Source: Methanosarcinales archaeon (lineage in GTDB: Archaea; Halobacteriota; Methanosarcinia; Methanosarcinales; Methanocomedenaceae). Taken from it: 41,884 nucleotides of DNA. Shown here one piece after another: positions 1 through 24,067 of this stretch. Position 1 is the stretch's first letter. Each line of letters starts with the position of its first letter. The DNA lies in assembly GCA_030610815.1 (NCBI GenBank), contig JAUWRA010000002.1, positions 1-41,884 on the forward strand, written 5' to 3'. Both the position numbers and the translations under genes were made by a program. Under the pieces are notes generated by a model. It saw nothing but the letters and a program-made list of their open reading frames with translations, had not been told where the DNA came from and ran no database searches.

Positions 1-3000
1 CGCCTGAGGTATCGCTCGTATAATACTTCAGCAGATCATACCGCTCGTCTGTCCCGTGATTGTCATGACACGCCTTACATGCAAGTTTCCCATCCTCGAG
101 CGGGTGATGGGTCTTCTGGCTGAACTCGGTCTCCTGCTGAAGCCGCGGCTGTGTCGCACTCGCGCTGTGGCACTCCAGACTGCCGGTACTGCCGGTGTAG
201 CATAATTGCGGACTTGGATAGTACAGCAGATCCTTCCCGCTCTCAGTACCGTGCGGAATGTCAATGGAATCGTTCTCATCATGGCAGTCTATGCACCGCC
301 CAGCTGTGTACGGATCGGTCATATTCGTTATATTGATTTCATACTTCGTCCAGTGCTTCGTGTTTGTAAACGTAAGTTTATCCACATGACAGTAATAGCA
401 CTTACTGTTCGGGGTGTAGCCTGTGTCTACGAGAATGGTAACGCCTGGTTCTGTGATCGTGGTCGTGACGTTCCGATACGACCTGCCATATATCTCCTGA
501 AGCACATCCCATCGATTGATTGCGGTACAGTTCATCGGTTGGTATGTGGTCTTCCCGCTCACATTCTGTTTGTACTCGATAATCAGAAGCCAGTTATCAC
601 TTGATGTCGGCGGTCCCCAGTAACTGAATGGCTTACCGCTCAGTCTGCCGCCCTGCACCTCCTGCTCTCCATCTTGAGCTCCTGCTGATATTTCGCCATC
701 CCAGCAGAGTGCTCCATTGGCATCACTGAGATCACTGTACCGCACCGTGAGATTGGACCACATCGATTCCTGGTGGTAGTTATCCCAGCAGACCACATCG
801 ATCCTCCACATCAGTGTCAGATTCGATGTATCCTCGTAGCCGACCTTTGTTTTGTCAAAGACGGTATCAAGTGTGTAGAGTCTGGTGTCATTGGTGAGGT
901 AGAATATGTAATTCGCTGCTGTCGATCCATTGTTTGTGAAAGTTGCGCCGTTTGAGTCATTGATCCTGATATCGAACTCTGCCCCGTTGCGTGTAAGATC
1001 GTTCCCGATCATCGTTGTGTTCGTTGAGTACTCCTCAAGGAGGATGCCGATGCTCGTGTAGTTCGTGATAGTGTTTGCGGTGAGGTTGTGATCCCTTGAT
1101 GTGTTGAGGAATATGCCCCGCTCTATGGCATCAATGGTGTTGTTCGTGAGATTGCCCCAGTTTGACTCTAACATATAGATGCCGTCTGTACCCGCTGTGA
1201 TGGTGGTGTCGATTATGTCTGTGTGGTTTGAATTCGTGCAATTCAAGCCTGTGTTGTTTGCGGTGATGCTGCCGCCGTCCCGGATGGTTACGTGGTGGGA
1301 CACAGATAGGCTTATGCCATCGCTGGATGATGAGGTGATCGTGACGTTTGCAAGGGTTGTGTAATGGGCACTGTTCGTGTTTAGTCCGTAATCATCCACA
1401 GACGAGATCGTAGTGTCGGTGATGGTGGTGTGATCGGATGAGCTTATGTCCAGTCCCTTGTCGATTGTGCTTTCGATAGTGCTCCCTGTGATGTTGTTGT
1501 AATGCGAACTCGTTTCGAACCGTGCTCCTTCGCTTGGACTTACCGTATCGAGATCAGTGATGTTGTTGCTGGATGAAGCATATAGCAGGATGCCATTGAA
1601 GTTATTCGATAGGGTGTTGTTGGTCAGAGTGTTACTATTTGAATCCCGCAAAAATATACCATAACCGGATTTTATATTATTTGAAAGTTCGCTGTCTCTT
1701 ATGGTGATGTTAGTACAATTTATAAGCGTGATCTTTCCGACATTGCTCACATTGTATTGCAAGAGGTTCTTCGACTCGATTATGATGTCCTGTTCTTCAT
1801 AGTAATAGCTCACATTTTCGCCGTTTGCTGTGTTGTTGCGCCAGATGTGATTTTTATAATATGAGTACTCGAATTGTAATGCAAGATCACTGTTCCCTGA
1901 TATTGTATTTTCACTTAGATCATTGTTATCCGAATAGAAATAAACTCCATTGCCGCTGTTCGAGAGTATTGTATTGTTTCGTATGGTGTTATCGCCTATA
2001 TGTTCAGTGGTAGAACCTATGCAGATACCGTCGCCACTATTCTCTGATATATTATTGTCTGTGAAGTTATTATTTCCACTTCCTGCTAAATAAATGCCTA
2101 TACTATTGTTGATGACGCTATTGTTGATGATGCGGTTGTCACTGCTTGTACCGTCTGATCGAATACCATTACCAATGTTATCCAGAATTTGACTGTCGTT
2201 TATGAGATTATTGTTCGAATCGGTAAAATATACCCCGTGTTTTACGTTGTTCTCGATAGTACTTCCACTAATTCCACTCAATGAAGATCCCACGATCCGG
2301 ATGCCATCCCCGTTGTGTATCGTGCAGCCCGTGAACCACAGATCGTTGCAATTGGCGATTGTTATGTGCCCGATGTTATTGTCGCCGGTAATCATGCCGC
2401 TGTCGCTGTAGTTATAGTATACCAGCCCGCCGTTTACGGTGTTGGTGGTGTCGATATCCTGATCATAGTCTCCTGTGACGTACAGGCTGTAATCCCCATT
2501 GTTGTTGTTCAGACTGTTATTTCGCAGGATATTGTTCTTCGAGGAATCTATGAATATGCCGTTCCCCTGGACGGTGTTTTCGATGGTGCAGTCTGTGATG
2601 TTGACATATCCTGAGGTCGAGGTCAGGTAGATGCCACAGTTCTGATTGTTGCCGATGGTACAGTTATCAATGGTTATATTATTGATGGTCCGGATGTTCA
2701 ACTCATTGCTGTACTCGACGGTGCTGTCGCTCAGATTGCCGTAGCTATCGTCATTGTAGTTGAAATTGTAATAGCCGGAATCGTTTCGGGTGATGGTTGA
2801 ACCACTGGTCACGTTCATGGTTGCGCCGCTCTGGACATTGATGGAAGTTAAGTTTTCCATCCGTATCGTTGCGTTGCTGAGGTGCAGCGCGCCGCTTTCG
2901 ACATCAATTTTGACGGATATAACGCTCTCGTTGTTGCTCAGATTCGTACTCCATTCCGCATAGTTCGCATCAGTAACAATGATCGTGCCATAATCCACAG

Positions 3001-3121
3001 CCTCTGCCACCCCGCACATCATCAAAAATAGCACAACCAAGCACGTGCAGGCAGCAAGTAAAGACATAGCTCGAATAGGGTGACTAGTATATGTACGTCC
3101 AGTGGATACAGCGGGGATCAT
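1..3121 (-). CDS. Secreted beta-helix (NosD-like) protein with C-terminal multiheme c-type cytochrome region, 3' end beyond window
   Basis: One reading frame stays open from an ATG at 3121 to the window edge, about 1040 codons without a stop. The N-terminus has a basic stretch, a hydrophobic core (LLAACTCLVVLFLMMCGVAEA, positions about 20-40) and a signal-peptidase-like site; an inner ATG at 3067 is an alternative start. From about residue 50 to 700 the protein is Asn/Thr/Ser-rich with repeated N-N-x-I/L and G-I-x-I/F motifs about 22-25 residues apart, as in NosD/PbH1 right-handed parallel beta-helices. A beta-sandwich-like stretch follows (about 700-880), then heme-type motifs CYYCH (bases 386-400), CIDCH (281-295), a long-spaced C-x9-C-H (167-202) and CKACH (65-79), with many extra His. 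The expected place is outside the membrane. No Shine-Dalgarno sequence is seen. It is divergent from the pentaheme gene at 3593. A surface role in electron transfer is inference. Confidence 0.85.
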   Translation of the reverse strand, partial: MIPAVSTGRTYTSHPIRAMSLLAACTCLVVLFLMMCGVAEAVDYGTIIVTDANYAEWSTNLSNNESVISVKIDVESGALHLSNATIRMENLTSINVQSGATMNVTSGSTITRNDSGYYNFNYNDDSYGNLSDSTVEYSNELNIRTINNITIDNCTIGNNQNCGIYLTSTSGYVNITDCTIENTVQGNGIFIDSSKNNILRNNSLNNNNGDYSLYVTGDYDQDIDTTNTVNGGLVYYNYSDSGMITGDNNIGHITIANCNDLWFTGCTIHNGDGIRIVGSSLSGISGSTIENNVKHGVYFTDSNNNLINDSQILDNIGNGIRSDGTSSDNRIINNSVINNSIGIYLAGSGNNNFTDNNISENSGDGICIGSTTEHIGDNTIRNNTILSNSGNGVYFYSDNNDLSENTISGNSDLALQFEYSYYKNHIWRNNTANGENVSYYYEEQDIIIESKNLLQYNVSNVGKITLINCTNITIRDSELSNNIKSGYGIFLRDSNSNTLTNNTLSNNFNGILLYASSSNNITDLDTVSPSEGARFETSSHYNNITGSTIESTIDKGLDISSSDHTTITDTTISSVDDYGLNTNSAHYTTLANVTITSSSSDGISLSVSHHVTIRDGGSITANNTGLNCTNSNHTDIIDTTITAGTDGIYMLESNWGNLTNNTIDAIERGIFLNTSRDHNLTANTITNYTSIGILLEEYSTNTTMIGNDLTRNGAEFDIRINDSNGATFTNNGSTAANYIFYLTNDTRLYTLDTVFDKTKVGYEDTSNLTLMWRIDVVCWDNYHQESMWSNLTVRYSDLSDANGALCWDGEISAGAQDGEQEVQGGRLSGKPFSYWGPPTSSDNWLLIIEYKQNVSGKTTYQPMNCTAINRWDVLQEIYGRSYRNVTTTITEPGVTILVDTGYTPNSKCYYCHVDKLTFTNTKHWTKYEINITNMTDPYTAGRCIDCHDENDSIDIPHGTESGKDLLYYPSPQLCYTGSTGSLECHSASATQPRLQQETEFSQKTHHPLEDGKLACKACHDNHGTDERYDLLKYYTSDTSG

Positions 3122-3592: not shown

Positions 3593-4096
3593 ATGAAAGA
3601 TAAAACTTACATTACAATAATTGCACTATCAGGCATTCTACTTATTGTAGGTGTTGTATACCTGACACTAACTACAGATATTTTCGCATCACAAAATGAC
3701 ACTGATGTAGAAGAAATTATTATACCGGAATTCGAACCAATTCCAGAACAAACAATTGACTGTGAAATGTGTCATGCTCATCCGGAAAAAGAAAAGAAAC
3801 ATATAGATGGCGGCATCTATTGTGAACCATGTCATGGAACAGATCTCCACGACCTGCACATCAAAGAAACTACAGCTAATCTCTCATGCATTGTCTGTCA
3901 TGGTCTAGAACCGATCATCCCGGAAAAACTACCAGGGCATGATAAGATCTGCGATGCATGTCACGACTACCCTGACGCGATCCAGCCAAGCTATGGAAAT
4001 ATTATAACAATACATATGACCAGAGGATACTCCTGCACTATCTGCCATATACAGGATATTCAGAGTATCCATACAAATTCCATGAACAGCAGTTAA
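3593..4096 (+). CDS. Membrane-anchored pentaheme c-type cytochrome
   Basis: This is a 167-residue protein. Residues 5-28 form one hydrophobic segment after a Lys-rich start, fitting an uncleaved signal anchor or a signal peptide. An acidic linker (33-55) follows, then five CxxCH motifs at C57, C77, C99, C120 and C148, with further His (H63, H70, H85, H88, H116, H141) able to act as distal ligands. Such proteins are exported and receive heme on the outer face through the Ccm machinery. AAGG precedes the ATG. The gene is divergent from the large beta-helix cytochrome and is followed by a V4R-like gene. No match to a named family (NapC/NirT, NrfH) is evident. A role passing electrons between the membrane and the large surface protein is inferred from position only. 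Confidence 0.9.
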   Translation: MKDKTYITIIALSGILLIVGVVYLTLTTDIFASQNDTDVEEIIIPEFEPIPEQTIDCEMCHAHPEKEKKHIDGGIYCEPCHGTDLHDLHIKETTANLSCIVCHGLEPIIPEKLPGHDKICDACHDYPDAIQPSYGNIITIHMTRGYSCTICHIQDIQSIHTNSMNSS

Positions 4097-13041: not shown

Positions 13042-13602
13042 ATGAAAATAGAGATACTATCCGGCACCCTGGATTATGACGGCTCCCAGATAGAGCCGCT
13101 GTGGGCATATTCAAAAGATATTCCCGGGGACAGCATTGTGTTGTTCAGGGGGGCTATGGATATTCCGGATTCAAATATCAAGGACCTGGAAGACCTGCAA
13201 AATAATCTAGCTATCAAGGGCGGGGATATGCTGCACTTCATAGTTGAGCGGTTCGATTCTCCGGGCAGCATAAGGCTTGCATATTATATGCAGCGCTTGC
13301 TGGTTGTCTGTGCTAAAGATGTCTTATTTCACCACGGCATAGAATCGATACGCAACGGTGATGATCTTTTTATTGGTAGTGGTAAATTGACTGTTAGCAT
13401 AGCATCTGCGGGGATTTCCTCTGAGAAAATACATTTAGGCATTAATATTTCATGTAATGGCACGCCTCCAGATGTGGAAATTGCCTGTCTGACAGATCTG
13501 GGCATTACTGATTTTATGGGCATGGGGACGGAGATTGCCACTGCTTTTGCAGCCGAAGTCGATGATATAGAGTCTGACATTGTGAAAACAAAGGGACTTT
13601 GA
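13042..13602 (+). CDS. DUF366-like conserved archaeal protein
   Basis: This is a soluble protein of 186 residues. The opening with L-D-Y-D-G-S-Q-I-E-P-L-W-A-Y matches what I remember of DUF366, a family largely restricted to archaea and of unknown function; I believe it is distantly related to biotin/lipoate-ligase folds, but I cannot verify that. It has no Cys clusters, signal peptide or membrane segments. AGGTTCC before the ATG is a poor ribosome site. It may be co-transcribed with albA. Confidence 0.6.
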   Translation: MKIEILSGTLDYDGSQIEPLWAYSKDIPGDSIVLFRGAMDIPDSNIKDLEDLQNNLAIKGGDMLHFIVERFDSPGSIRLAYYMQRLLVVCAKDVLFHHGIESIRNGDDLFIGSGKLTVSIASAGISSEKIHLGINISCNGTPPDVEIACLTDLGITDFMGMGTEIATAFAAEVDDIESDIVKTKGL

Positions 13603-13647
13603 CCTGACCATTTCAGTACATAAAGTATGACTTTGTATACTCAAGTT

Positions 13648-13682
13648 AATCCAACTGACAAGAGGATTTTCTTGTTGGGATT
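13648..13682. terminator. Imperfect hairpin after the DUF366-like gene
   Basis: ACAAG pairs with CTTGT around an 8-base loop, extended with a bulge by AATCC and GGATT. It lies 46 bases after the stop and about 70 before the fpo promoter. It may be a terminator, but no strong T-tract follows. Confidence 0.3.
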
Positions 13683-13751
13683 ATAAGTTTAACCTGCTAT
13701 TCTCGATAACGAAACACGGGACCATTAAAATCTCATGAACATTTCATAACA

Positions 13752-13800
13752 TTTTTATACATAGAATTTAACTCTCAATATCGAAAGGACATATAGGTGA
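13752..13800 (+). promoter_or_regulatory. Promoter and ribosome site of the fpo operon
   Basis: TTTTTATAC (13752-13760) is a good TATA box, predicting a start near 13780-13785. AGGTGA (13795-13800) precedes the fpoA ATG at 13805. No other promoter of this quality is seen before the terminator at 24.07 kb, consistent with one long transcript. Confidence 0.55.
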
Positions 13801-13804
13801 TGAT

Positions 13805-14203
13805 ATGGAGGAAATTATTGATAATTTTATACCTGTAGCTATTTTCATTCTATTTGGTTTAGTAATACCCTTGGCAATAATGTTTATTGTAAAGCAGATA
13901 TCGCCGAGGAGCAAGACGCTAGCTAAGTTCACAACCTATGAAAGTGGTTCTGTGCCCACCGGTAGTGCGAACATGATGTTCAATGTCGAATATTACGCAT
14001 ATGCAATACTTTTTGTATTGTTTGATGTTGAATTGTTGTTCCTTTATCCATGGGTTACTGTTTATGTGAATGAAGCTGTGATTACATCTACACCAGGTTT
14101 TACTACAGGATTTAGCATTTTAGCGATGGTATTGTTTATGATTGTTGTACTATTAGGACTTATATATGAATGGAAGAAGGGGGTCTTGGAATGGGTGAGA
14201 TAA
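13805..14203 (+). CDS. fpoA: F420H2 dehydrogenase subunit FpoA
   Basis: This 132-residue NuoA-like membrane subunit has three hydrophobic segments (about 10-30, 60-85 and 95-120) and the conserved loop T-T-Y-E-S-G-S-V-P-T-G-S-A. The matching acidic run F-D-V-E-L-L-F-L-Y-P-W of NuoA/ND3 is present. In Fpo it helps link the peripheral arm to the membrane arm near the quinone-like (methanophenazine) site. It is the first gene of the operon, and its end overlaps fpoB. Confidence 0.93.
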   Translation: MEEIIDNFIPVAIFILFGLVIPLAIMFIVKQISPRSKTLAKFTTYESGSVPTGSANMMFNVEYYAYAILFVLFDVELLFLYPWVTVYVNEAVITSTPGFTTGFSILAMVLFMIVVLLGLIYEWKKGVLEWVR

Positions 14204-14733
14204 AGACAGAGCTTCCACCGAATGTGGTGGTCACTACTAACAGTGCAATAAATGAGTTCATTAAAAATTCACCGCTCCAGAAAATTGTAAACTGGGGTAG
14301 AAAGAACTCGTTATGGTTTATGACCCATCCAATGGGTTGCTGCGGAATTGAACAAATATGCGTAGGTGTAGCCCATTATGATACAGATAGGTTTGGTATC
14401 ATCCCGAGGTGTTCCCCGAGACAGGCTGATGTAATGATGATCAGTGGTTATGTTAGCAAGAAATATCTACCTGCTCTAAAAAGGGTATGGGACCAGATGT
14501 TAGAACCTAGGTGGATATTGATGATGGGTGAGTGTGCAATCTCCGGTGGTCCCTGGTGGGAATCATATAGTACAGTCACGCATCTTGATGAAATATTCCC
14601 TGTGGATATTTATATTCCCGGTTGTCCGCCAAGACCCGAAGCCCTTTTGCAGGGATTCATTGAACTTCAGAAAAAGATCGTGGCTGAGCAAGACAGGACT
14701 GTAATACCAAATCCAGGAGAAGGTGGTGAGTAA
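14191..14733 (+). CDS. fpoB: F420H2 dehydrogenase subunit FpoB
   Basis: This is 180 residues from the ATG at 14191, preceded by AGGGGGT; an in-frame ATG seven codons earlier (14170) lies deeper in fpoA and is less likely. It is NuoB/PSST-like and binds the terminal [4Fe-4S] cluster N2 through C50, C51, C115 and C145. The family segments H-P-M-G-C-C-G-I-E and G-C-P-P-R-P-E-A-L are intact. It delivers electrons to methanophenazine. Confidence 0.95.
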   Translation: MGEIKTELPPNVVVTTNSAINEFIKNSPLQKIVNWGRKNSLWFMTHPMGCCGIEQICVGVAHYDTDRFGIIPRCSPRQADVMMISGYVSKKYLPALKRVWDQMLEPRWILMMGECAISGGPWWESYSTVTHLDEIFPVDIYIPGCPPRPEALLQGFIELQKKIVAEQDRTVIPNPGEGGE

Positions 14734-14736
14734 AAT

Positions 14737-15204
14737 ATGGGAGATGAAAAGATCGATAAAACCATCATGATTGAACTGTCAAATACGTTCAAGGATGCAG
14801 TTTCTGATGTGGATGTCCCCTCACCTAACAGGGCGGTAGCAAGAATAGATCCAGGTAAAGTAAAAGAGATCATGCAGTTTTTACTTGACAACGGTTTCGA
14901 CCATCTTTCCTGTATATCAGGTGTGGATTATCCTCCTGATAAGATAGAGGTGGTATATCATGTCACATCATATTCGGCACCGTTGGTCATAACATTAAAA
15001 GCTTCAGTACCAAGAGATGATCCGAAAATAGATTCACTATGTGGTATCTACTGGAATGCAAACTGGTATGAACGGGAAACGTATGAACTTTATGGGATCA
15101 AATTTACTGATTGTCCGTATATGAAGGTCCTATTGCTGATAGACGAAATGGAAGGAGAATGGCCACTGCGTAAAGATTACGCTGGGTATCCCGATCTAAC
15201 ATAG
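14737..15204 (+). CDS. fpoC: F420H2 dehydrogenase subunit FpoC
   Basis: This 155-residue NuoC (30 kDa)-like peripheral subunit carries the signature W-Y-E-R-E-T-Y-E-L-Y-G-I and the C-terminal P-L-R-K-D-Y-A-G-Y. It begins four bases after fpoB with GGTGAG as ribosome site. Separate FpoC and FpoD, rather than a NuoCD fusion, is the arrangement known in Methanosarcina. Confidence 0.93.
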   Translation: MGDEKIDKTIMIELSNTFKDAVSDVDVPSPNRAVARIDPGKVKEIMQFLLDNGFDHLSCISGVDYPPDKIEVVYHVTSYSAPLVITLKASVPRDDPKIDSLCGIYWNANWYERETYELYGIKFTDCPYMKVLLLIDEMEGEWPLRKDYAGYPDLT

Positions 15205-15214
15205 GTGATGAACA

Positions 15215-16345
15215 ATGACACATGAAGCAACTCAAATCACTTCCCCACCCAAACCATCTGAGATACTCCTGCATCTCGGACCACAGCATCCGCTGCAGCC
15301 TGGTCCTTTTTTGCTTGATCTGAAGATAGAGGGTGAAACAATAAGGGAAGCCGAACTCAAGATAGGTTATATTCATAAAGGTATGGAAAAGGTGTTTGAA
15401 GACAGGACATATCTCCAGATCCTTCCGCTGACAGACAGGATATGTTATCTTGCCTCTAATTCCAACAACGATGTCTACTGCCGTGGTGTTGAGGAACTGT
15501 TGGGCATAGAACCTACAGACCGTGCCATGTATCTTAGGGTAATAACCAATGAGCTTTGCAGATTACAGAGCCATCTGTTAGGAATAGGTGAATTTACCAC
15601 AGATGTAGGCTTTTTGACCATGTTCATCTATATGGTCAGGGAGCGAGAAGGGGTTGTATCCCTGCTGGAAGCTATTACAGGTTCAAGACTGAACCACAAT
15701 TATGCAAGGTTTGGCGGGGTAGCGAACGACCTGCCGCCAGGCTATAAGGAGATGGCATTAAAAACCCTGGGAGAACTGAAGAAACAGGTCAAATCCCATG
15801 ATGCGATGCTGTCCAGTGATTCGATCTACCTCAGAAGGACTAAAGGTGTAGGAGTATTAACTGCTAAAGAAGCCGGCGAACTTGGAGTGGCAGGACCGCC
15901 TTTAAGGGCCGCAGGCGTGGAGTATGACCTAAGGCGTATGGAACCTTATCTGGTATATGATGATCTTGATTTTAAGGTAATCACCCAGACTGATGGTGAT
16001 GTATTTGCACGGGTCAAAGTAAGATTACTGGAGATGCTTGAGAGTATCTATATTATTGAGCAGTGTCTGGACCAGATGCCTTCAGGTCCGTATAAGCAGG
16101 ATGTAACACCATATATCACGCGCCCCAAATCCGGAGAGGTGTATCCCCGTATTGAAGATCCGAGAGGAGAGATGGGAATGTACATAATTTCTGATGGTTC
16201 CGATAAACCATATCGTTTCAGGATCAGGGGTCCTGCTTTTGCTACGGCACAGGCACTTCCGCCATTATTGGTGGGAACATACGTAGCTGATGTGGCAGCC
16301 ATAGCAGCAAGTATGGATTCATGTACCAGTGAGGTAGATCGGTAG
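15215..16345 (+). CDS. fpoD: F420H2 dehydrogenase subunit FpoD
   Basis: This 376-residue NuoD (49 kDa)/hydrogenase-large-subunit-like protein forms the methanophenazine pocket with FpoB. The N-terminal G-P-Q-H-P-L-Q-P-G replaces the bacterial H-P-S-T-H-G, as in other Fpo proteins. R-L-Q-S-H-L-L-G-I-G, the D-P-R-G-E-M-G segment and the C-terminal D-x-C-T-S-E-V-D-R are conserved. The hydrogenase nickel-binding Cys pairs are absent, as expected for complex I relatives. AGGTGA precedes the ATG. Confidence 0.95.
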   Translation: MTHEATQITSPPKPSEILLHLGPQHPLQPGPFLLDLKIEGETIREAELKIGYIHKGMEKVFEDRTYLQILPLTDRICYLASNSNNDVYCRGVEELLGIEPTDRAMYLRVITNELCRLQSHLLGIGEFTTDVGFLTMFIYMVREREGVVSLLEAITGSRLNHNYARFGGVANDLPPGYKEMALKTLGELKKQVKSHDAMLSSDSIYLRRTKGVGVLTAKEAGELGVAGPPLRAAGVEYDLRRMEPYLVYDDLDFKVITQTDGDVFARVKVRLLEMLESIYIIEQCLDQMPSGPYKQDVTPYITRPKSGEVYPRIEDPRGEMGMYIISDGSDKPYRFRIRGPAFATAQALPPLLVGTYVADVAAIAASMDSCTSEVDR

Positions 16346-16358
16346 GGAGGTGTAATTT

Positions 16359-17420
16359 ATGGGAATTGTAGAAATATATGAAATTATTATGGATACTCTT
16401 GTTTTTATTTTTGCAACCAATCCATTTTCGCCCTGGATCAGGGGTGTTCTTGGCGGGCTTGTGATAGGAGCTGTGTTCGGCGGAGCTCTTGTAATGGTAT
16501 ATCTTGAGCGTAAGTTCCTGGGAGATATGCAATCCAGGATTGGTCCTAATCGGGTAGGCGGTCGATTTGGTGTATTGCAGTTGATAGCAGATGCTATCAA
16601 ACTATTCACTAAAGAAGATATTATACCTGCCAAGGCCGATAAATGGTTATTTATAGGTGCACCGATTGTTGCACTCACGTCAGGTTTTTTGATGGTGGCA
16701 GTAATCCCCTTTGATCTCCTAATAATCAAAGGGAACGAATATGCAGTAGCAGTATCCCGAATGGATATCAGTATCCTGTATATTGAAGCTGTATCCGGGT
16801 TGGCCATCTTTGCTACATTTATGGCAGGATGGGGTTCAAGCAGTAAATATGCAGTGCTTGCTGCGTTCAGGAACGTAGCAAAGATGATCGGTTACGAAAT
16901 TCCAATGGGTATTTCTATTCTTAGTGTGGCAGTAATGGCGTATTCACTGGATATCGTTGAAATAGTGGAAGCCCAGTCAAGTATATGGTTCATTATTGCA
17001 CAGCCGTTGGGTTTTGTAATATTCTTCATAGCCTTGTTGGCTGATGTGGGACGAATACCCTTTGACCAAACTGAAGCAGAAGAAGAACTCGTCGCAGGAT
17101 GGGCTACGGAATACAGCGGGATGAGATGGGGGCTGGCATTCTTTGCTGAATATCTCCATGCAGTTGTGGGCTCCTTCATTGTTACCCTGATATTCCTGGG
17201 TGGATGGAATGGTCTCCCGTTTGTTGGCAATCTATACATTCCAGGAATCTTCTGGGTGATTGCCAAGACAATAATAGTGATGATGCTTTTCATATGGATC
17301 AGAGCTGCCCTGCCAAGATACAGGATCGACCAAGTCATCGATATAGGTTGGAAGGTATTAATTCCACTTGCTTTGCTGAACCTTGTATGGTCAACTATCA
17401 TAGGATTAATGTGGGCCTAG
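16359..17420 (+). CDS. fpoH: F420H2 dehydrogenase subunit FpoH
   Basis: This 353-residue NuoH/ND1-like membrane subunit has about eight hydrophobic helices. Family landmarks present are E-R-K-F-L-G-D-M-Q-S-R-I-G-P-N-R-V-G (about 51-68), the R-I-P-F-D-Q-T-E-A-E-E-E-L-V-A-G loop and a C-terminal R-A-A-L-P-R-Y-R-I-D-Q. It forms the entrance to the methanophenazine site and the first proton path. GGAGGTG precedes the ATG. Confidence 0.95.
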   Translation: MGIVEIYEIIMDTLVFIFATNPFSPWIRGVLGGLVIGAVFGGALVMVYLERKFLGDMQSRIGPNRVGGRFGVLQLIADAIKLFTKEDIIPAKADKWLFIGAPIVALTSGFLMVAVIPFDLLIIKGNEYAVAVSRMDISILYIEAVSGLAIFATFMAGWGSSSKYAVLAAFRNVAKMIGYEIPMGISILSVAVMAYSLDIVEIVEAQSSIWFIIAQPLGFVIFFIALLADVGRIPFDQTEAEEELVAGWATEYSGMRWGLAFFAEYLHAVVGSFIVTLIFLGGWNGLPFVGNLYIPGIFWVIAKTIIVMMLFIWIRAALPRYRIDQVIDIGWKVLIPLALLNLVWSTIIGLMWA

Positions 17421-17432
17421 GAGGGGAAAAAG

Positions 17433-17828
17433 ATGGTATTAAAAAATTTACAAATAACTCTTCGCACTGTATATACAAAATCTGTAACGAGACTATATCC
17501 GGAAGAAATTATGGAACTGCCTGATGCATTCAGGGGGCAGCAACATTTGGATATGGATAAATGTGTAGGATGCGGTATATGTTCCCAGATGTGTCCCAAT
17601 GATGTTATTGAGATAGTTAAAAGCGGAAAATGGTATCCACAATTTGATAACGGGCATTGTATGTTCTGCGGACTATGTGTTGATTTTTGTCCGAATGGGG
17701 CATTGTCTATGACAAAACATTTTGAGATGGCTTGTTGGACCAAGGAAGAAACAATCTACAGCCCTGACCAGCTTGCAGCTCCGAATAAAGCCGAACTTGA
17801 AGGCAGGACAGGGGGGTATACGAAATGA
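17433..17828 (+). CDS. fpoI: F420H2 dehydrogenase subunit FpoI (two [4Fe-4S])
   Basis: This 131-residue NuoI-like ferredoxin subunit carries two clusters, from C44-C47-C50 plus C86 and C76-C79-C82 plus C54. It passes electrons from FpoF to FpoB. The ribosome site is AGGAGGGG. The last four bases overlap fpoJ. Confidence 0.95.
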   Translation: MVLKNLQITLRTVYTKSVTRLYPEEIMELPDAFRGQQHLDMDKCVGCGICSQMCPNDVIEIVKSGKWYPQFDNGHCMFCGLCVDFCPNGALSMTKHFEMACWTKEETIYSPDQLAAPNKAELEGRTGGYTK

Positions 17829-18082
17829 TAGACCTACAGATCATACCATTTGCAATTATATCAATAATCATGATCGGTTCATCCATCATGGTGGTAAAAT
17901 CAAAGGAAGTAGTACACAGTGCTTTCCATTGTGTTATAACTATGATGGCTGCTGCCGGATTTTATGTGTTGCTTAGTGCGCAGTTCATAGCTGTAGTGCA
18001 GATACTGGTGTATGTAGGAGCCATTGGTGTGATGATACTCTTTGCAGTAATGCTTACTACGAGAAACCAGGAGGTGGAGTGA
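17825..18082 (+). CDS. fpoJ1: F420H2 dehydrogenase subunit FpoJ, N-terminal part
   Basis: This 85-residue protein has three predicted helices and matches the N-terminal half of NuoJ/ND6, including the V-G-A-I-G-V-M-I-L-F-A-V-M-L segment of its third helix. The ORF ends right after that helix. The rest of NuoJ is in the following gene. As I recall, FpoJ is also encoded in two pieces in Methanosarcina, so this is an ancestral split rather than a recent frameshift. Confidence 0.88.
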   Translation: MIDLQIIPFAIISIIMIGSSIMVVKSKEVVHSAFHCVITMMAAAGFYVLLSAQFIAVVQILVYVGAIGVMILFAVMLTTRNQEVE

Positions 18083-18084
18083 TT

Positions 18085-18390
18085 ATGGAACAATTACCAA
18101 GTAAAAGTTGGAATATAATTAACCTGGTGACTGCGCTTATGTTGATGGCAGTATTAGTATTTGCGATTGTTAGTGTTGTCGGATTAGGGCCTTTAGTGCC
18201 AAGCACTCTGCCAGAAAGTGTACCTATTGATTATACAGTCTGGGAAGACGGGTCAAGGGATGCAAGTGGGATTGAACATGTAGGAGGACTGTTGTTCACC
18301 AAATATGTAATCCCGTTTGAGGTCCTTGCACTGGTCCTGTTAGCGGCACTCTTAGGGAGTCTTTACATGGCCAAGAAGGAGGATGAGTAA
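18085..18390 (+). CDS. fpoJ2: F420H2 dehydrogenase subunit FpoJ, C-terminal part
   Basis: This is 101 residues from the ATG at 18085; AGGAGG ten bases ahead favours it over a GTG at 18079 that overlaps the fpoJ1 stop. Two hydrophobic helices flank a soluble loop (T-V-W-E-D-G-S-R-D), matching helices 4-5 of NuoJ, with the G-L-L-F-T-K-Y-V-I-P-F-E-V element. It would assemble with fpoJ1 into one subunit of the membrane arm. Confidence 0.85.
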   Translation: MEQLPSKSWNIINLVTALMLMAVLVFAIVSVVGLGPLVPSTLPESVPIDYTVWEDGSRDASGIEHVGGLLFTKYVIPFEVLALVLLAALLGSLYMAKKEDE

Positions 18391-18692
18391 TGTTACCGGT
18401 CAGTTATTATCTAATTGTTGCAGCCATTGTGTTCTGCATTGGTGTTTATGGTGTGATGACATTAAGGTCAGGAATTATGATCATGATGTGTATAGAACTG
18501 ATGCTTAATGCAGCTAACATCAACCTGATAGCCTTTGCATCACATTTCAGCCAGGTGAACGGTCATGTTTTTGTACTGTTCAGCATTGCTTTGGCAGCGG
18601 CTGAAGCAGCTATTGGTTTTGCAATATTAATGAGTATATTCAGGTCTAAGAACAATGTCAATATCGACAATATCAACATCCTGAGGTGGTAA
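18390..18692 (+). CDS. fpoK: F420H2 dehydrogenase subunit FpoK
   Basis: This 100-residue NuoK/ND4L-like protein has three helices. The conserved membrane Glu residues of the family are present in C-I-E-L-M-L-N-A-A-N-I-N and A-A-A-E-A-A-I-G-F-A. The ATG shares a base with the previous stop (TAATG), preceded by AGGAGGATG. Confidence 0.95.
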   Translation: MLPVSYYLIVAAIVFCIGVYGVMTLRSGIMIMMCIELMLNAANINLIAFASHFSQVNGHVFVLFSIALAAAEAAIGFAILMSIFRSKNNVNIDNINILRW

Positions 18693-18695
18693 GAT

Positions 18696-20741
18696 ATGGC
18701 TGTTGATAATATAGTATATTTGATACCGGCACTTCCGGTGTTAGCATTCGTACTTACCCTTGCTTTTGGCAAGAAACTTCCCTCAGGTGGAGGATATATA
18801 CCGATACTGGCAATCGCCATATCCTGTATTATATCTGTAATGGCATTTTTACAGATATATAACACGGGTATACCCATTGAGGTATCTGCTCATTGGTTTT
18901 CAGTATTGAACGTTGGTATTTTGATCGATCCTCTGGCAAGTGTAATGTTGATGATGGTCACTTTTGTGAGTTTGCTCATCCACATCTATGCTATAGGTTA
19001 TATGGCACACGACCCAGGCAAACCCAGATATTTCGCAGAGACCGCATTGTTCACTGCTGCTATGCTGGGTGTGGTGCTGGCAGATAACATCCTCCAGTTC
19101 TTCATTGCTTGGGAACTGGTAGGTCTGTGTTCATATCTGCTGATCGGGTTCTGGTTCAGGAAACCTACAGCTGCAGCCGCAGCTAAGAAGGCTTTCCTCA
19201 CAACCCGTGTAGGTGATGTGCTGTTCTTAGCTGGTATAGTAATATTATATTCCAGTATGAGAGATGTTTTTTTGGAGCGCTTTCCAGCTGGTATACCCGA
19301 CGGGACCTATTTACTTCAATTCAGTACGATCTTCGATAATATATCACATATAGATCCTACTAACCTTACTATTATTACACTGCTCTTCTTTGGCGGTGCG
19401 GTAGGTAAGAGCGGGCAGTTCCCGCTGCATGTATGGTTGCCTGATGCAATGGAAGGTCCCACTACGGTTTCGGCCTTGATCCATGCAGCTACAATGGTAA
19501 CTGCTGGTGTGTATTTAGTTGCCAGGACGTTCCCGATGTTTATTGCATCTCCTGCGGTTGAATTAGCGGGAATTACAATTCCTGCAACACTTACTGTTGT
19601 AGCTTATATAGGCGGTTTTACAGCACTGTTCGCATCTACCATGGGACTGGTAATGAACGATATCAAACGTGTACTTGCCTTTTCTACGATCAGCCAGCTT
19701 GGATATATGATGCTGGCACTTGGAATGGGATCGGTAATAGGTGTTGCTGCAGTAGGTTTTGCCATGTTCCACCTGATCAATCATGCATTCTTCAAAGCAT
19801 GTCTGTTCTTGTGTGCAGGTAGTGTCATTCATTCGACTGGTACAAATGATCTGCGTGAAATGGGTGGTCTGATGAGTAAGATGAAGATCACAGGGATCAC
19901 CATGTTATTTTCTTCACTGGCACTTGCCGGTATTGGTATACCATTTTTGAAAATTATTGGTACGCCTATTGGTACCAGCGGCTTTGTCAGTAAGGATGCG
20001 ATCATTTTGGAAGGTTCATATGTATTTGCTAATGTGACACATGACTGGATCCCATTTGCCTTTGGTGTATTAGCGGCATTATTGACAGCAATATATACAT
20101 TCAGGCTGTGGTTTATGGCATTCACAGGGAAACCCCGCCAGGAAAGACATCCTCATGAGTCGCCAGCAACTATGACAGGAGTTTTATCAATTCTTGCTGT
20201 GTTTGCATTGGTATTTGGAATGCTCACCTTCATTCCGTTCAATATTTTCGTCGGTCATACATATGATCACCATGAGATTGAAGAACTTGCTGGATTAGCT
20301 GGAAATCATGTTATAGGTCATGATGAAATTCTTGATATCGCCCATCATGCTTCCCCAATAATAACCCTATTACCGGTTATCGTTGGTGTAGGTGGACTAC
20401 TGTTAGCATGGGTAATCTATAACAGGCGTTGGATAAGTGTGGCATCGATCGGGAATATGCGAAATCCGTTATTCAAGATTCTTGCCAAGCGGTACTACCA
20501 GCATGAAATATTCATTGAACTGATATCCCTGAAGTTCACTTATGGAGTACTTGCCCTGGCCGGTGAGTTCAGTGACCGTAAGATAGTTGATGGTATCATT
20601 GACGGCATAAGTTCATTTATCATAGGAGGAGCAGAAGTCTTGAAAAAGATTCAAACAGGTGTGGTGCAGAATTATGCCACAGCAACGGTTTTAGGGGTGG
20701 GCTTGATAGCCCTTATCCTTTCATTAAGGTGGGTGATCTAA
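18696..20741 (+). CDS. fpoL: F420H2 dehydrogenase subunit FpoL (antiporter-like)
   Basis: This 681-residue NuoL/ND5-like ion-translocating subunit has about 16 membrane helices including the long C-terminal lateral helix. W-E-L-V-G-L-C-S-Y-L-L-I-G-F-W carries the conserved Glu, and G-K-S-G-Q-F-P-L-H-V-W-L-P-D-A-M-E-G-P-T with N-D-I-K-R-V-L-A-F-S-T-I-S-Q carries the conserved Lys/His proton-path residues. A short His-rich insert (D-H-H-E-I-E, H-D-E-I-L-D-I-A-H-H) sits in the C-terminal third. Confidence 0.95.
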   Translation: MAVDNIVYLIPALPVLAFVLTLAFGKKLPSGGGYIPILAIAISCIISVMAFLQIYNTGIPIEVSAHWFSVLNVGILIDPLASVMLMMVTFVSLLIHIYAIGYMAHDPGKPRYFAETALFTAAMLGVVLADNILQFFIAWELVGLCSYLLIGFWFRKPTAAAAAKKAFLTTRVGDVLFLAGIVILYSSMRDVFLERFPAGIPDGTYLLQFSTIFDNISHIDPTNLTIITLLFFGGAVGKSGQFPLHVWLPDAMEGPTTVSALIHAATMVTAGVYLVARTFPMFIASPAVELAGITIPATLTVVAYIGGFTALFASTMGLVMNDIKRVLAFSTISQLGYMMLALGMGSVIGVAAVGFAMFHLINHAFFKACLFLCAGSVIHSTGTNDLREMGGLMSKMKITGITMLFSSLALAGIGIPFLKIIGTPIGTSGFVSKDAIILEGSYVFANVTHDWIPFAFGVLAALLTAIYTFRLWFMAFTGKPRQERHPHESPATMTGVLSILAVFALVFGMLTFIPFNIFVGHTYDHHEIEELAGLAGNHVIGHDEILDIAHHASPIITLLPVIVGVGGLLLAWVIYNRRWISVASIGNMRNPLFKILAKRYYQHEIFIELISLKFTYGVLALAGEFSDRKIVDGIIDGISSFIIGGAEVLKKIQTGVVQNYATATVLGVGLIALILSLRWVI

Positions 20742-22223
20742 GTGGTGGATTATGTACTTTCGTTAATACTGTTCATCCCACTCATAGGTGCTGCCCTAAC
20801 GCTGTTATTTACCAAGAGCCGTGAATCAGCCAGAATGGTTGCATTTGTCTCATCAGCAATATCATTTGTACTTACAATAATGATATATCTCCAGTTCGAA
20901 CCAGGTATAGCTTTCCTGGGATTCCAGTTCGAGGAAAAAATCGGCTGGATCAGCAGTATGGGAATAAATTACCAACTTGGTGTTGACGGAGTCAGCATGC
21001 CGTTGATTTTATTAAATGCAATACTGTGTCCGTTAACCATTGTTTATGCATGGGGAGAGAGCAAACTGCCCAACCAGTTCTTTGCTTTGATACTGGTGCT
21101 GCAGGCTGGAGTGTTCGGGGTATTCATGTCCCTGGATTTCTTCCTGTTCTACATATTCTGGGAACTGACACTGATACCATTGTACTTCCTGATAAGTATC
21201 TGGGGCGGTCCTAATAAGGACTATGCAGCCATTAAATTCTTTATTTATACTCATGTTGCCAGTCTTGTAATGGTCCTGGGTATATTTGCGCTGTATTTCA
21301 GTACTGGTGTCAATACATTTGAAATACCGGTATTGTTAGAGGCATTTTCTGACATAGTATCTGCTGAGATGAGAGTTGGTATTTTCCTTGCCCTGTTCTT
21401 TGGGTTTTTGGTGAAGATGCCTACTGTTCCATTCCATACCTGGCTGCCAGATGCCCATGTGGAAGCACCCACTGCAGGCAGTGTCCTGCTGGCCGGTGTG
21501 CTGCTTAAGATGGGCGGCTACGGGCTGTTCAGGGTATTGTTACCAATGATGGATAGCCTTGGACCATATCGTTCAAGTATAATCACATTAATGGCGGTGC
21601 TGGCTGTGGTAAGCATATTATATGCTACATTTTTGGCACTGGCACAGAAAGATCTGAAAAAGATGGTCGCTTACAGCAGTGTAGCCCATATGGGTTATGT
21701 GATGCTGGGAGCTGCCGCATTCAACTATATGTCAGTTTCAGGAGCCATGTTCCAGCAATTCAGTCACGGACTGATCACTGCCGTGCTTTTCATGAGCGTA
21801 GGTGTGATACAGCACAGTGTTCATACCAGGATCATACCAGACCTGGGTGGATTGGCTGACCGGATGCCAAAACTGGCCTTCTTGATGATGTGTGGATTCA
21901 TGGCATCACTGGGACTTCCGGCTATGAGTGGTTTTATTGCTGAGTTTATGGTACTAACAGGAAGTTACCTGACTCTACCAGTATATGCACTGTTGGCAAT
22001 GGTTGGTATTGTAGCTACGGCTGGTTATCACCTGTGGGCAATGCAACGTGCCATGTTTGGCAGTTACAACGAGAAACTTGGTGAACCTCATGACCTGGCT
22101 AACTTCGAAATGATACCCATGGCAATACTGGTGTTGTTGATAATATTGTTTGGAGTATATCCGGGATCAGTGATGGAAATGTTTGAACATGCCAGTAAAA
22201 TCATTCCAGGAGTGATGATATGA
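20742..22223 (+). CDS. fpoM: F420H2 dehydrogenase subunit FpoM (antiporter-like)
   Basis: This is 493 residues from a GTG immediately after the fpoL stop, with AAGGTGGGTGAT ahead. It is NuoM/ND4-like with about 14 helices; W-E-L-T-L-I-P-L-Y-F-L-I supplies the key Glu, and P-F-H-T-W-L-P-D-A-H-V-E-A-P-T and K-D-L-K-K-M-V-A-Y-S-S-V-A-H-M-G-Y are intact. It overlaps fpoN by four bases. Confidence 0.95.
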   Translation: MVDYVLSLILFIPLIGAALTLLFTKSRESARMVAFVSSAISFVLTIMIYLQFEPGIAFLGFQFEEKIGWISSMGINYQLGVDGVSMPLILLNAILCPLTIVYAWGESKLPNQFFALILVLQAGVFGVFMSLDFFLFYIFWELTLIPLYFLISIWGGPNKDYAAIKFFIYTHVASLVMVLGIFALYFSTGVNTFEIPVLLEAFSDIVSAEMRVGIFLALFFGFLVKMPTVPFHTWLPDAHVEAPTAGSVLLAGVLLKMGGYGLFRVLLPMMDSLGPYRSSIITLMAVLAVVSILYATFLALAQKDLKKMVAYSSVAHMGYVMLGAAAFNYMSVSGAMFQQFSHGLITAVLFMSVGVIQHSVHTRIIPDLGGLADRMPKLAFLMMCGFMASLGLPAMSGFIAEFMVLTGSYLTLPVYALLAMVGIVATAGYHLWAMQRAMFGSYNEKLGEPHDLANFEMIPMAILVLLIILFGVYPGSVMEMFEHASKIIPGVMI

Positions 22224-23698
22224 ATTATATAGAATTAGCGTCAGAATTCGCTCCGGAATTGATATTGACCATCGGGGCTCTTGCCATTATGATGATCGGT
22301 CTATTTCTGGCAAATTCACAGAAAAAGGTACTGGGATATCTTGCCACAATATTCCTTGCAGTGGCCAGCTTGGTCATTGTGTACAGGGGAATATATGATA
22401 TACAGATGGAAGGCATATTGGCAGATTCCCTGACCATCGACCCCATGAGCCAGTTCTTTAAGCTGACCTTCTTAGTGGTATCCCTGATTGTGGTTATTGC
22501 ATCGATAAAGGAGTATGATGGCCATTCGAATCAAGACGAGTATTATACTCTAATACTACTCGGGACCATCGGAATGATGGTAGTGGCCTCAGCGATAGAT
22601 ATTGTGACTATGTTCATCGGGTTTGAACTGGCCAGTTTATCCACTTATGCACTGGCAGGATTCAATAAGAAGGATCCAAATAGCCTGGAAGCGGCAGTCA
22701 AGTACTTCATCATAGGTGCCCTGTCATCCGCATTGCTGTTGTTCGGTCTTTCATACATATATGGTATGAGCGGTGGCCTTACAAACATCAGTGAACTGGC
22801 TGTTTTCTTTAACAATAATCCCGCGGTCCTCCAGAGTCCAATGGGTATAATAGCTTTAATGCTGATCGTGGCCGGATTCGGATTTAAGATGGCATTAGTA
22901 CCGTTCCATATGTGGGCACCGGATACATATCAAGGTGCACCTACCGTTATATCAGCATTACTGGCAGCAGGGTCCAAGAAGATGGCCTTCGTTGCAGCCT
23001 TCAGGATATTATTGATTGCGATGATAGCCATCAAGATCGATATAGCAATGGTGTTCATGATTCTTGCAATAATTACCATGACCCTTGGGAATGTGGTTGC
23101 CCTTAGCCAAAGGAGTTTAAAGCGTATGCTTGCTTATTCTTCAGTGGCACAGGCAGGATACATTTCCATGGTGTTTGTAGTAATGTCGCCCGAAGCATTG
23201 ACTGGAGGCATACTGTATGTTATGTCTCATGCATTCATGAAGACGGGTGCTTTCATTGCAGTAGCAGCACTGGGATATATGTTGTTGAAGGAGAACAGTA
23301 ATGCAAAGGACGTTGATCATCTGGATAACTTTGCCGGACTAGGTAAAAGGTCTCCATTTTTGGCATTCAGTATTATGATATTCCTGTTTGCCCTGGCTGG
23401 TATTCCATTCACGGCAGGTTTTGTCAGTAAGTTCATACTGTTCTTATCAGTGCTGGAAGGAGGATTTTATCTCCTTGTGATCTTTGCCATATTGAATAGT
23501 GCATTGTCCCTGTATTATTACGCCAGGGTTGTGAAATATATGTATGTACTTCCGCCTTCGTCCGATGAAAAATTGAAAGTACCCGGAACATATGCAGTAG
23601 CTATACTGCTGGCAATTATAGGCGTGCTGGCAATAGGAATTGTTCCTGAACCATTCATCAACTGGGCAGCAAGTGCAGCTAATGTACTGGGACTATAA
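22220..23698 (+). CDS. fpoN: F420H2 dehydrogenase subunit FpoN (antiporter-like)
   Basis: This 492-residue NuoN/ND2-like membrane subunit has about 14 helices. P-F-H-M-W-A-P-D-T-Y-Q-G-A-P-T and S-L-K-R-M-L-A-Y-S-S-V-A-Q-A-G-Y are the family signatures, and G-F-E-L-A-S-L-S-T-Y-A-L carries the membrane Glu. It sits between the other antiporter subunits and FpoK/J in complex I-like enzymes. Confidence 0.95.
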   Translation: MNYIELASEFAPELILTIGALAIMMIGLFLANSQKKVLGYLATIFLAVASLVIVYRGIYDIQMEGILADSLTIDPMSQFFKLTFLVVSLIVVIASIKEYDGHSNQDEYYTLILLGTIGMMVVASAIDIVTMFIGFELASLSTYALAGFNKKDPNSLEAAVKYFIIGALSSALLLFGLSYIYGMSGGLTNISELAVFFNNNPAVLQSPMGIIALMLIVAGFGFKMALVPFHMWAPDTYQGAPTVISALLAAGSKKMAFVAAFRILLIAMIAIKIDIAMVFMILAIITMTLGNVVALSQRSLKRMLAYSSVAQAGYISMVFVVMSPEALTGGILYVMSHAFMKTGAFIAVAALGYMLLKENSNAKDVDHLDNFAGLGKRSPFLAFSIMIFLFALAGIPFTAGFVSKFILFLSVLEGGFYLLVIFAILNSALSLYYYARVVKYMYVLPPSSDEKLKVPGTYAVAILLAIIGVLAIGIVPEPFINWAASAANVLGL

Positions 23699-23713
23699 TA
23701 GGAGGTGAAAAAT

Positions 23714-24067
23714 ATGGCAGATTGTGATCTATGCGGGGTAGGAAGACCTACTCTATGTCCTGTGAAACCAGATGTACCGAGATACAGAAACGCCTACCCT
23801 ACAGGGATGTGGATGGCCATTTGCGAGGAATGCACCAACGCCTCCCACGACGCCAATAAAATCCGTACAAAGGCAAAAGGTTCCAAATGCAACCTTTGTG
23901 GAAGAAAGGGTGATCAACTGTATGCTGTGGAAACAAGAGTTCCTGATTTCAGCGAGCCTTATTATAAGGAAAAAGTAGCGGAGATCTGTGAATCATGCCT
24001 GGAAGCCACCGAGAATGCATACAACAAACGGCAGGCAGAACTGGCATCCCATAAAGGCCACCATTGA
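23714..24067 (+). CDS. fpoO: F420H2 dehydrogenase subunit FpoO (Cys-rich, iron-sulfur)
   Basis: This is 117 residues from the ATG at 23714 with GGAGGTG seven bases ahead; an in-frame GTG at 23705 lies inside that ribosome site. Nine Cys are arranged as C4-C7, C15, C37-C40, C59-C62 and C92-C95, two similar halves of C-x2-C pairs. FpoO is known from the Methanosarcina Fpo complex, where an iron-sulfur cluster was proposed; it has no bacterial complex I counterpart. The tail is His-rich. It is the last gene before the terminator. Confidence 0.9.
   Translation: MADCDLCGVGRPTLCPVKPDVPRYRNAYPTGMWMAICEECTNASHDANKIRTKAKGSKCNLCGRKGDQLYAVETRVPDFSEPYYKEKVAEICESCLEATENAYNKRQAELASHKGHH

Follow-up and report, generated by a model that had tools for sequence, protein, structure and literature searches.

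The window, a stretch of 41,884 nucleotides, is the entire contig C216 of genome G000, and its first part is occupied by a minus-strand open reading frame (3121..2) that runs for 1040 codons without a stop and is still open at the contig end. The frame encodes the N-terminal 1040 residues of a giant cytochrome of ANME MHC type C (MHC-C; 2..3121, minus strand), cut by the end of the contig. Its sequence begins with a signal peptide region (residues 1-41; 2999..3121, minus strand), a hydrophobic stretch ending in CGVAEA in which an AlphaFold2 model predicts a helix at residues 23-35; no further membrane span is seen, and the protein is clearly predicted to be secreted. There follows a right-handed parallel beta-helix (residues ~42-730; 932..2998, minus strand), recognized by PF13229/PF05048, TIGR03804 repeats, AlphaFold2 and Foldseek. 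Pfam matches over this N-terminal part are strong (Beta_helix, E=2.9e-52; NosD, E=5.7e-45), with CXXCH families matching the C-terminus of the 1040-residue frame, and the AlphaFold2 model is confident from about residue 40 to ~690-720, with pLDDT mostly above 85.

Between the helix and the first heme-binding motif lies a conserved heme-free linker (residues ~731-905; 407..931, minus strand) with many invariant columns in 17 relatives. Structure prediction, proposed in the initial annotation, succeeded for the beta-helix and failed for the linker plus first hemes, where the model is uninformative on fold (pLDDT 29). Three CxxCH motifs, supported by sequence and alignment, are present on the minus strand: CYYCH (residues 908-912; 386..400), CIDCH (residues 943-947; 281..295) and CKACH (residues 1015-1019; 65..79). 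A wide CX9CH motif (CYTGSTGSLECH; residues 974-985; 167..202, minus strand) emerges from alignment with the 17 relatives, in all of which the two cysteines and the histidine are invariant and the spacing variable. When residues 881-1040 were shuffled 20,000 times, at least three CxxCH motifs never arose. Sequence, Pfam and AlphaFold2 thus bear out the initial description of one open frame joining a signal peptide, a beta-helix and at least three CxxCH motifs; the helical repeats are as described, although nearer 690 residues than the ~650 first given.

The missing C-terminal half is encoded by a frame of 1208 residues located right where contig C194 ends (G000:C194:34522-38145), found by querying with the C-terminal half of the protein from G003, a genome of the same genus, to which it is 77-79% identical. 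Extending the frame and counting hemes, as had been suggested, adds 26 CxxCH and three wide motifs (CYTYCH, CGYGCH and CIVMGCH); the frame stops shortly past the last heme motif, ending in CRYCHVYPDKGNRTSQEWY, and no C-terminal membrane helix is present in this half. The two contigs were joined on synteny only, the same genes sharing one contig in G003 and G004, and alignment to G003 places the gap between their ends at ~90 residues, within which G003 has two CxxCH. The whole MHC-C would therefore be about 2,320 residues long with ~31 CxxCH and four wide motifs, like its intact relatives, which span 2,316-2,571 residues and, where of type C, carry 30-32 CxxCH. The hemes do lie at one end, as first noted, but their extent had been understated, with ~35 heme-binding motifs distributed over ~1,400 of the ~2,320 residues. 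Because the joining of helix and hemes is conserved in intact frames of other genomes, with neither a stop nor a frameshift between them and with further hemes beyond, it is not the product of a frameshift or of an assembly join.

This protein is an ANME MHC type C, a kind already described and defined by exactly this layout of N-terminal beta-helix and multiheme region (Chadwick et al. 2022, PLoS Biol, PMC9012536); nothing essential separates the window protein from the published type, and the initial view that the fusion was undescribed is wrong. Type C calls for at least 20 heme-binding motifs, and the two contigs hold 3 + 26 CxxCH and four wide motifs; the N-terminal beta-helix is identified by Pfam, AlphaFold2 and Foldseek, and there is no C-terminal transmembrane helix. 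The S-layer domain PF07752 has no match in the window half, the C194 half or G003, a comparison that covers all but the ~90 inter-contig residues. Contact with the S-layer by the type C protein itself, as the initial annotation supposed, consequently lacks support, neither an S-layer domain nor a membrane anchor having been found; the domain resides instead in MHC-B. NosD (PDB 7osf) has the same general class of beta-helix repeat but no heme region, and for the NosD copper protein subfamily TIGR04247 the score of 61.8 bits falls well short of the curated cut-off, 300 bits. No solved structure was matched by sequence for either the window half or the heme half of G003. The broader reading of a secreted protein with beta-helix and multiheme cytochrome from an ANME-type archaeon was correct, and surface electron transfer is probable.

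A profile built from the linker plus the first hemes finds matches in 18 genomes among 186 of the order, and in an even draw from the phylum it picks out only two of 394 (G000 and G018), both belonging to this order. Relatives include E20ANME2, ANME-2 HR1 (Ca. Methanomarinus), Ca. Argoarchaeum ethanivorans and GoM-Arc1-GOS. Among the genome families, we infer that f1 is Methanocomedenaceae, f2 ANME-2c and f3 the ethane oxidisers; that f4 g27 is ANME-3 and f5 Methanoperedenaceae is a guess. Searches of some nearly complete genomes from the window genome's own family (G006 and G010) turned up no MHC-C, which is therefore not essential to the whole family. ANME-2c genomes have the gene elsewhere on the chromosome, in the vicinity of a gene for class I lysyl-tRNA synthetase.

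Several other large proteins were encountered. The single-contig genome G018 encodes three giant cytochromes in a row (G018:C1 ~977000-1002500; L029:1036-19001, L030): an MHC-C of 2,458 residues, a 2,578-residue protein that has 27 CxxCH besides MG2 (macroglobulin) domains, and a beta-helix protein of 3,320 residues carrying 40 CxxCH. The mature N-terminus is similar in all three (AAEYGEINVTTANDE). G000 itself encodes a giant cytochrome of 1,348 residues with 30 CxxCH, adjoined by an 8-heme protein (G000:C111; L081:2765-8162), and a long protein in which a peptidase-like and GEVED-like region is joined to NosD-type repeats (G000:C146:7279-10743; L001). The latter was set aside: the part read shows no CxxCH, and its layout is different.

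The MHC-C gene belongs to a cluster, in which the order in the window genome is a divergent 5-heme gene, MHC-C, a 2-heme gene, a 3-heme gene, several small genes, MHC-B and CcmF. The divergent gene (3593..4096, plus strand) adjoins MHC-C and encodes a small cytochrome of 167 residues with an N-terminal hydrophobic helix and five CxxCH; a 5-heme small cytochrome gene is close to MHC-C in several lineages. As the group would lead one to expect, the window further includes an F420H2 dehydrogenase operon (13042-24067) with genes for FpoH and further NADH-dehydrogenase-like subunits. We also note that searches with the window's 461-residue oxidoreductase give matches in genus g4 (G010:C144:1938-3314 and G008:C109:2789-4159) that cross one TAA stop each.

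MHC-B is likewise a giant multiheme cytochrome (2125 residues, 34 CxxCH), but unlike MHC-C it has a peptidase-M6-like N-terminus, an InhA-like MAM domain, an S-layer domain (E=6.9e-21) and a C-terminal membrane helix as anchor. In Argoarchaeum-type genomes, too, MHC-C has a CcmF-like gene and a gene for MHC-B close by. In two other lineages the pair forms a single polypeptide, of 3,134 residues in G184, where the S-layer domain is included, and of 3,349 residues in G067; the N-termini of these fusions correspond to the beta-helix and first hemes of MHC-C (62% identical), and their C-termini are MHC-B-like (61% and 53%, respectively) and end in a membrane helix. CcmF-like genes adjoin the fusion gene in G067 and the near-identical G179. 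That two genes stand apart in one lineage and are fused in another is a classical sign of proteins that work together, and the shared cluster and the two fusions point to MHC-B and MHC-C forming a working pair. Composite MHCs of ANME-3 HMMV2 and ANME-2c ERB4, in which one polypeptide unites features of type B with those of type C, or S-layer with pectin lyase domains, appear in the published survey (PMC9012536), where HMMV2 is worded in the opposite order to the type C front and type B rear of G184 and G067; the window MHC-C, unlike these composites, is separate from MHC-B.

The ancestry of the MHC-C gene differs from that of its surroundings. Two of the window's housekeeping genes share 95-97% identity with the same genus, an observation by which misbinning of the window was rejected. 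The 5-, 2- and 3-heme neighbours are 88-92% identical to G003, and MHC-B is 89% identical to G003 versus 42-52% to ANME-2c genomes; the other small cluster genes are poorly conserved within the genus (42-68%). Within MHC-C, the signal peptide region is genus-like and the helix is about equally near to G003 and to the ANME-2c genome G040, and from residue ~775, at the helix end, the sequence (residues 780-1040) is ~90% identical to G040 and 55-83% to G003. In the C194 half the likeness to ANME-2c persists (up to 97%) until roughly residue 578 of that half, beyond which the sequence is nearer to G003 (79-90%). An ANME-2c-like tract of ~900 residues thus extends from the helix end into the heme region of a gene whose two ends are native to the genus. 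Permutation of informative sites with G003 and G040 as parents gave p=5e-5, the floor of the test, in both halves, and ANME-2a/b as a single clade is rejected in the helix tree (p-AU 1e-5) and in the linker/heme tree (p-AU 6e-5). Two genomes of ANME-2a/b and two of ANME-2c have in common a seven-residue insertion past the first heme motif, which the others aligned lack.

The main alternative to recombination is that the mosaic reflects a chimera made in metagenome assembly. Samples often contain both ANME-2a and ANME-2c, the MHC-C gene breaks across contigs, there is a 136-nucleotide exact match to G040, and the relevant relatives, G018 excepted, are all fragmented assemblies. We nevertheless consider a chimera improbable, since each junction is internal to a contig and has native sequence at its flank, no exact match longer than 63 nucleotides to any allele occurs near the junction at about residue 775, and cross-family mosaics are also present in G003, G004, G032 and G043. 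Hidden paralogy alone was rejected as well, because the conflict lies inside the gene and the genomes, G018 apart, are single-copy. The gene apparently is a patchwork exchanged between archaeal families and, as the ANME-2c MHC-C occupies a different site, the exchange probably relied on homology inside the gene itself. As to a mobile carrier, the linker/heme segment has no plasmid match and finds in viral contigs only an irrelevant 32% stretch. A literature search of limited extent found no description of cross-family MHC-C exchange, and neither it nor the MHC-B cluster and the occurrence in ethane oxidisers was found in the accessible part of Chadwick et al. 2022 (PMC9012536). We lean towards recombination, with MHC-C as a shared module whose helix and heme tracts are swapped by homologous exchange among ANME-2a/b, ANME-2c and ethane oxidisers, each retaining its native signal peptide, gene ends and MHC-B; these lineages would be exchanging an interspecies electron connector, perhaps one fitted to common partner bacteria.

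Foldseek matches of the beta-helix include carbohydrate-active beta-helices, tailspikes, the adhesin PfbA and NosD, the best being alginate lyases and C-5 epimerases; the matches to carbohydrate-active proteins are at fold level only, with low query TM-scores, and no glycan-binding residues were identified in the helix. These top matches could be taken to indicate an active polysaccharide-modifying enzyme, an epimerase or lyase, fused to a cytochrome, but only general beta-helix families match, the helix has no DPHD epimerase motif, and it is very poor in Lys, Arg and His; an enzymatic role is unlikely, and we give an active epimerase or lyase very little weight. A structural stalk, or an anchor to matrix polysaccharide, that spaces the hemes from the cell without partner recognition deserves more consideration, although we regard it as somewhat doubtful. 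It would suit the N/T/S/G-rich repeat with its 40 N-glycosylation sequons, the variation among lineages in the stretch preceding the first heme (903-1150 residues), and the match to general beta-helix families rather than to one enzyme family; some helix segments are, however, 95-99% identical at the DNA level across genomes, beyond what a mere spacer would seem to need.

We consider it likely that the 5' half of the Methanocomedenaceae (ANME-2a/b) MHC-C gene encodes a secreted, glycan-binding rod at the head of a heme wire fed by MHC-B, in a gene of mosaic origin. The rod, estimated at ~30 turns and roughly 14 nm, would bind glycans of a surface or matrix, most likely on the syntrophic partner or in the matrix of the aggregate; partner recognition via a pectin-lyase-like domain has already been proposed for type C in the published survey (PMC9012536). 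The C-terminal region would act as the electron wire. MHC-B, as a membrane-anchored S-layer cytochrome, may take electrons through the S-layer and hand them to MHC-C, which the cluster and natural fusions suggest could carry them outward to the partner or to extracellular cytochromes. Covalent heme at the motifs is predicted from sequence, and the cluster includes a CcmF gene; attachment plus electron relay is a predicted function of MHC-C.

In what way ANME archaea are electrically wired to their partners has been debated for a long time. The architecture of MHC-C was known already, and what is new is the apparent patchwork of the gene across families. Three observations open hypotheses to testing. 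The presence of types C and B in one cluster, and their fusion elsewhere, predicts that they form a physical pair; the type C gene also occurs in ethane oxidisers; and its apparent piecewise exchange across families, in contrast to MHC-B, suggests special selection on MHC-C, possibly at the interface with the partner.
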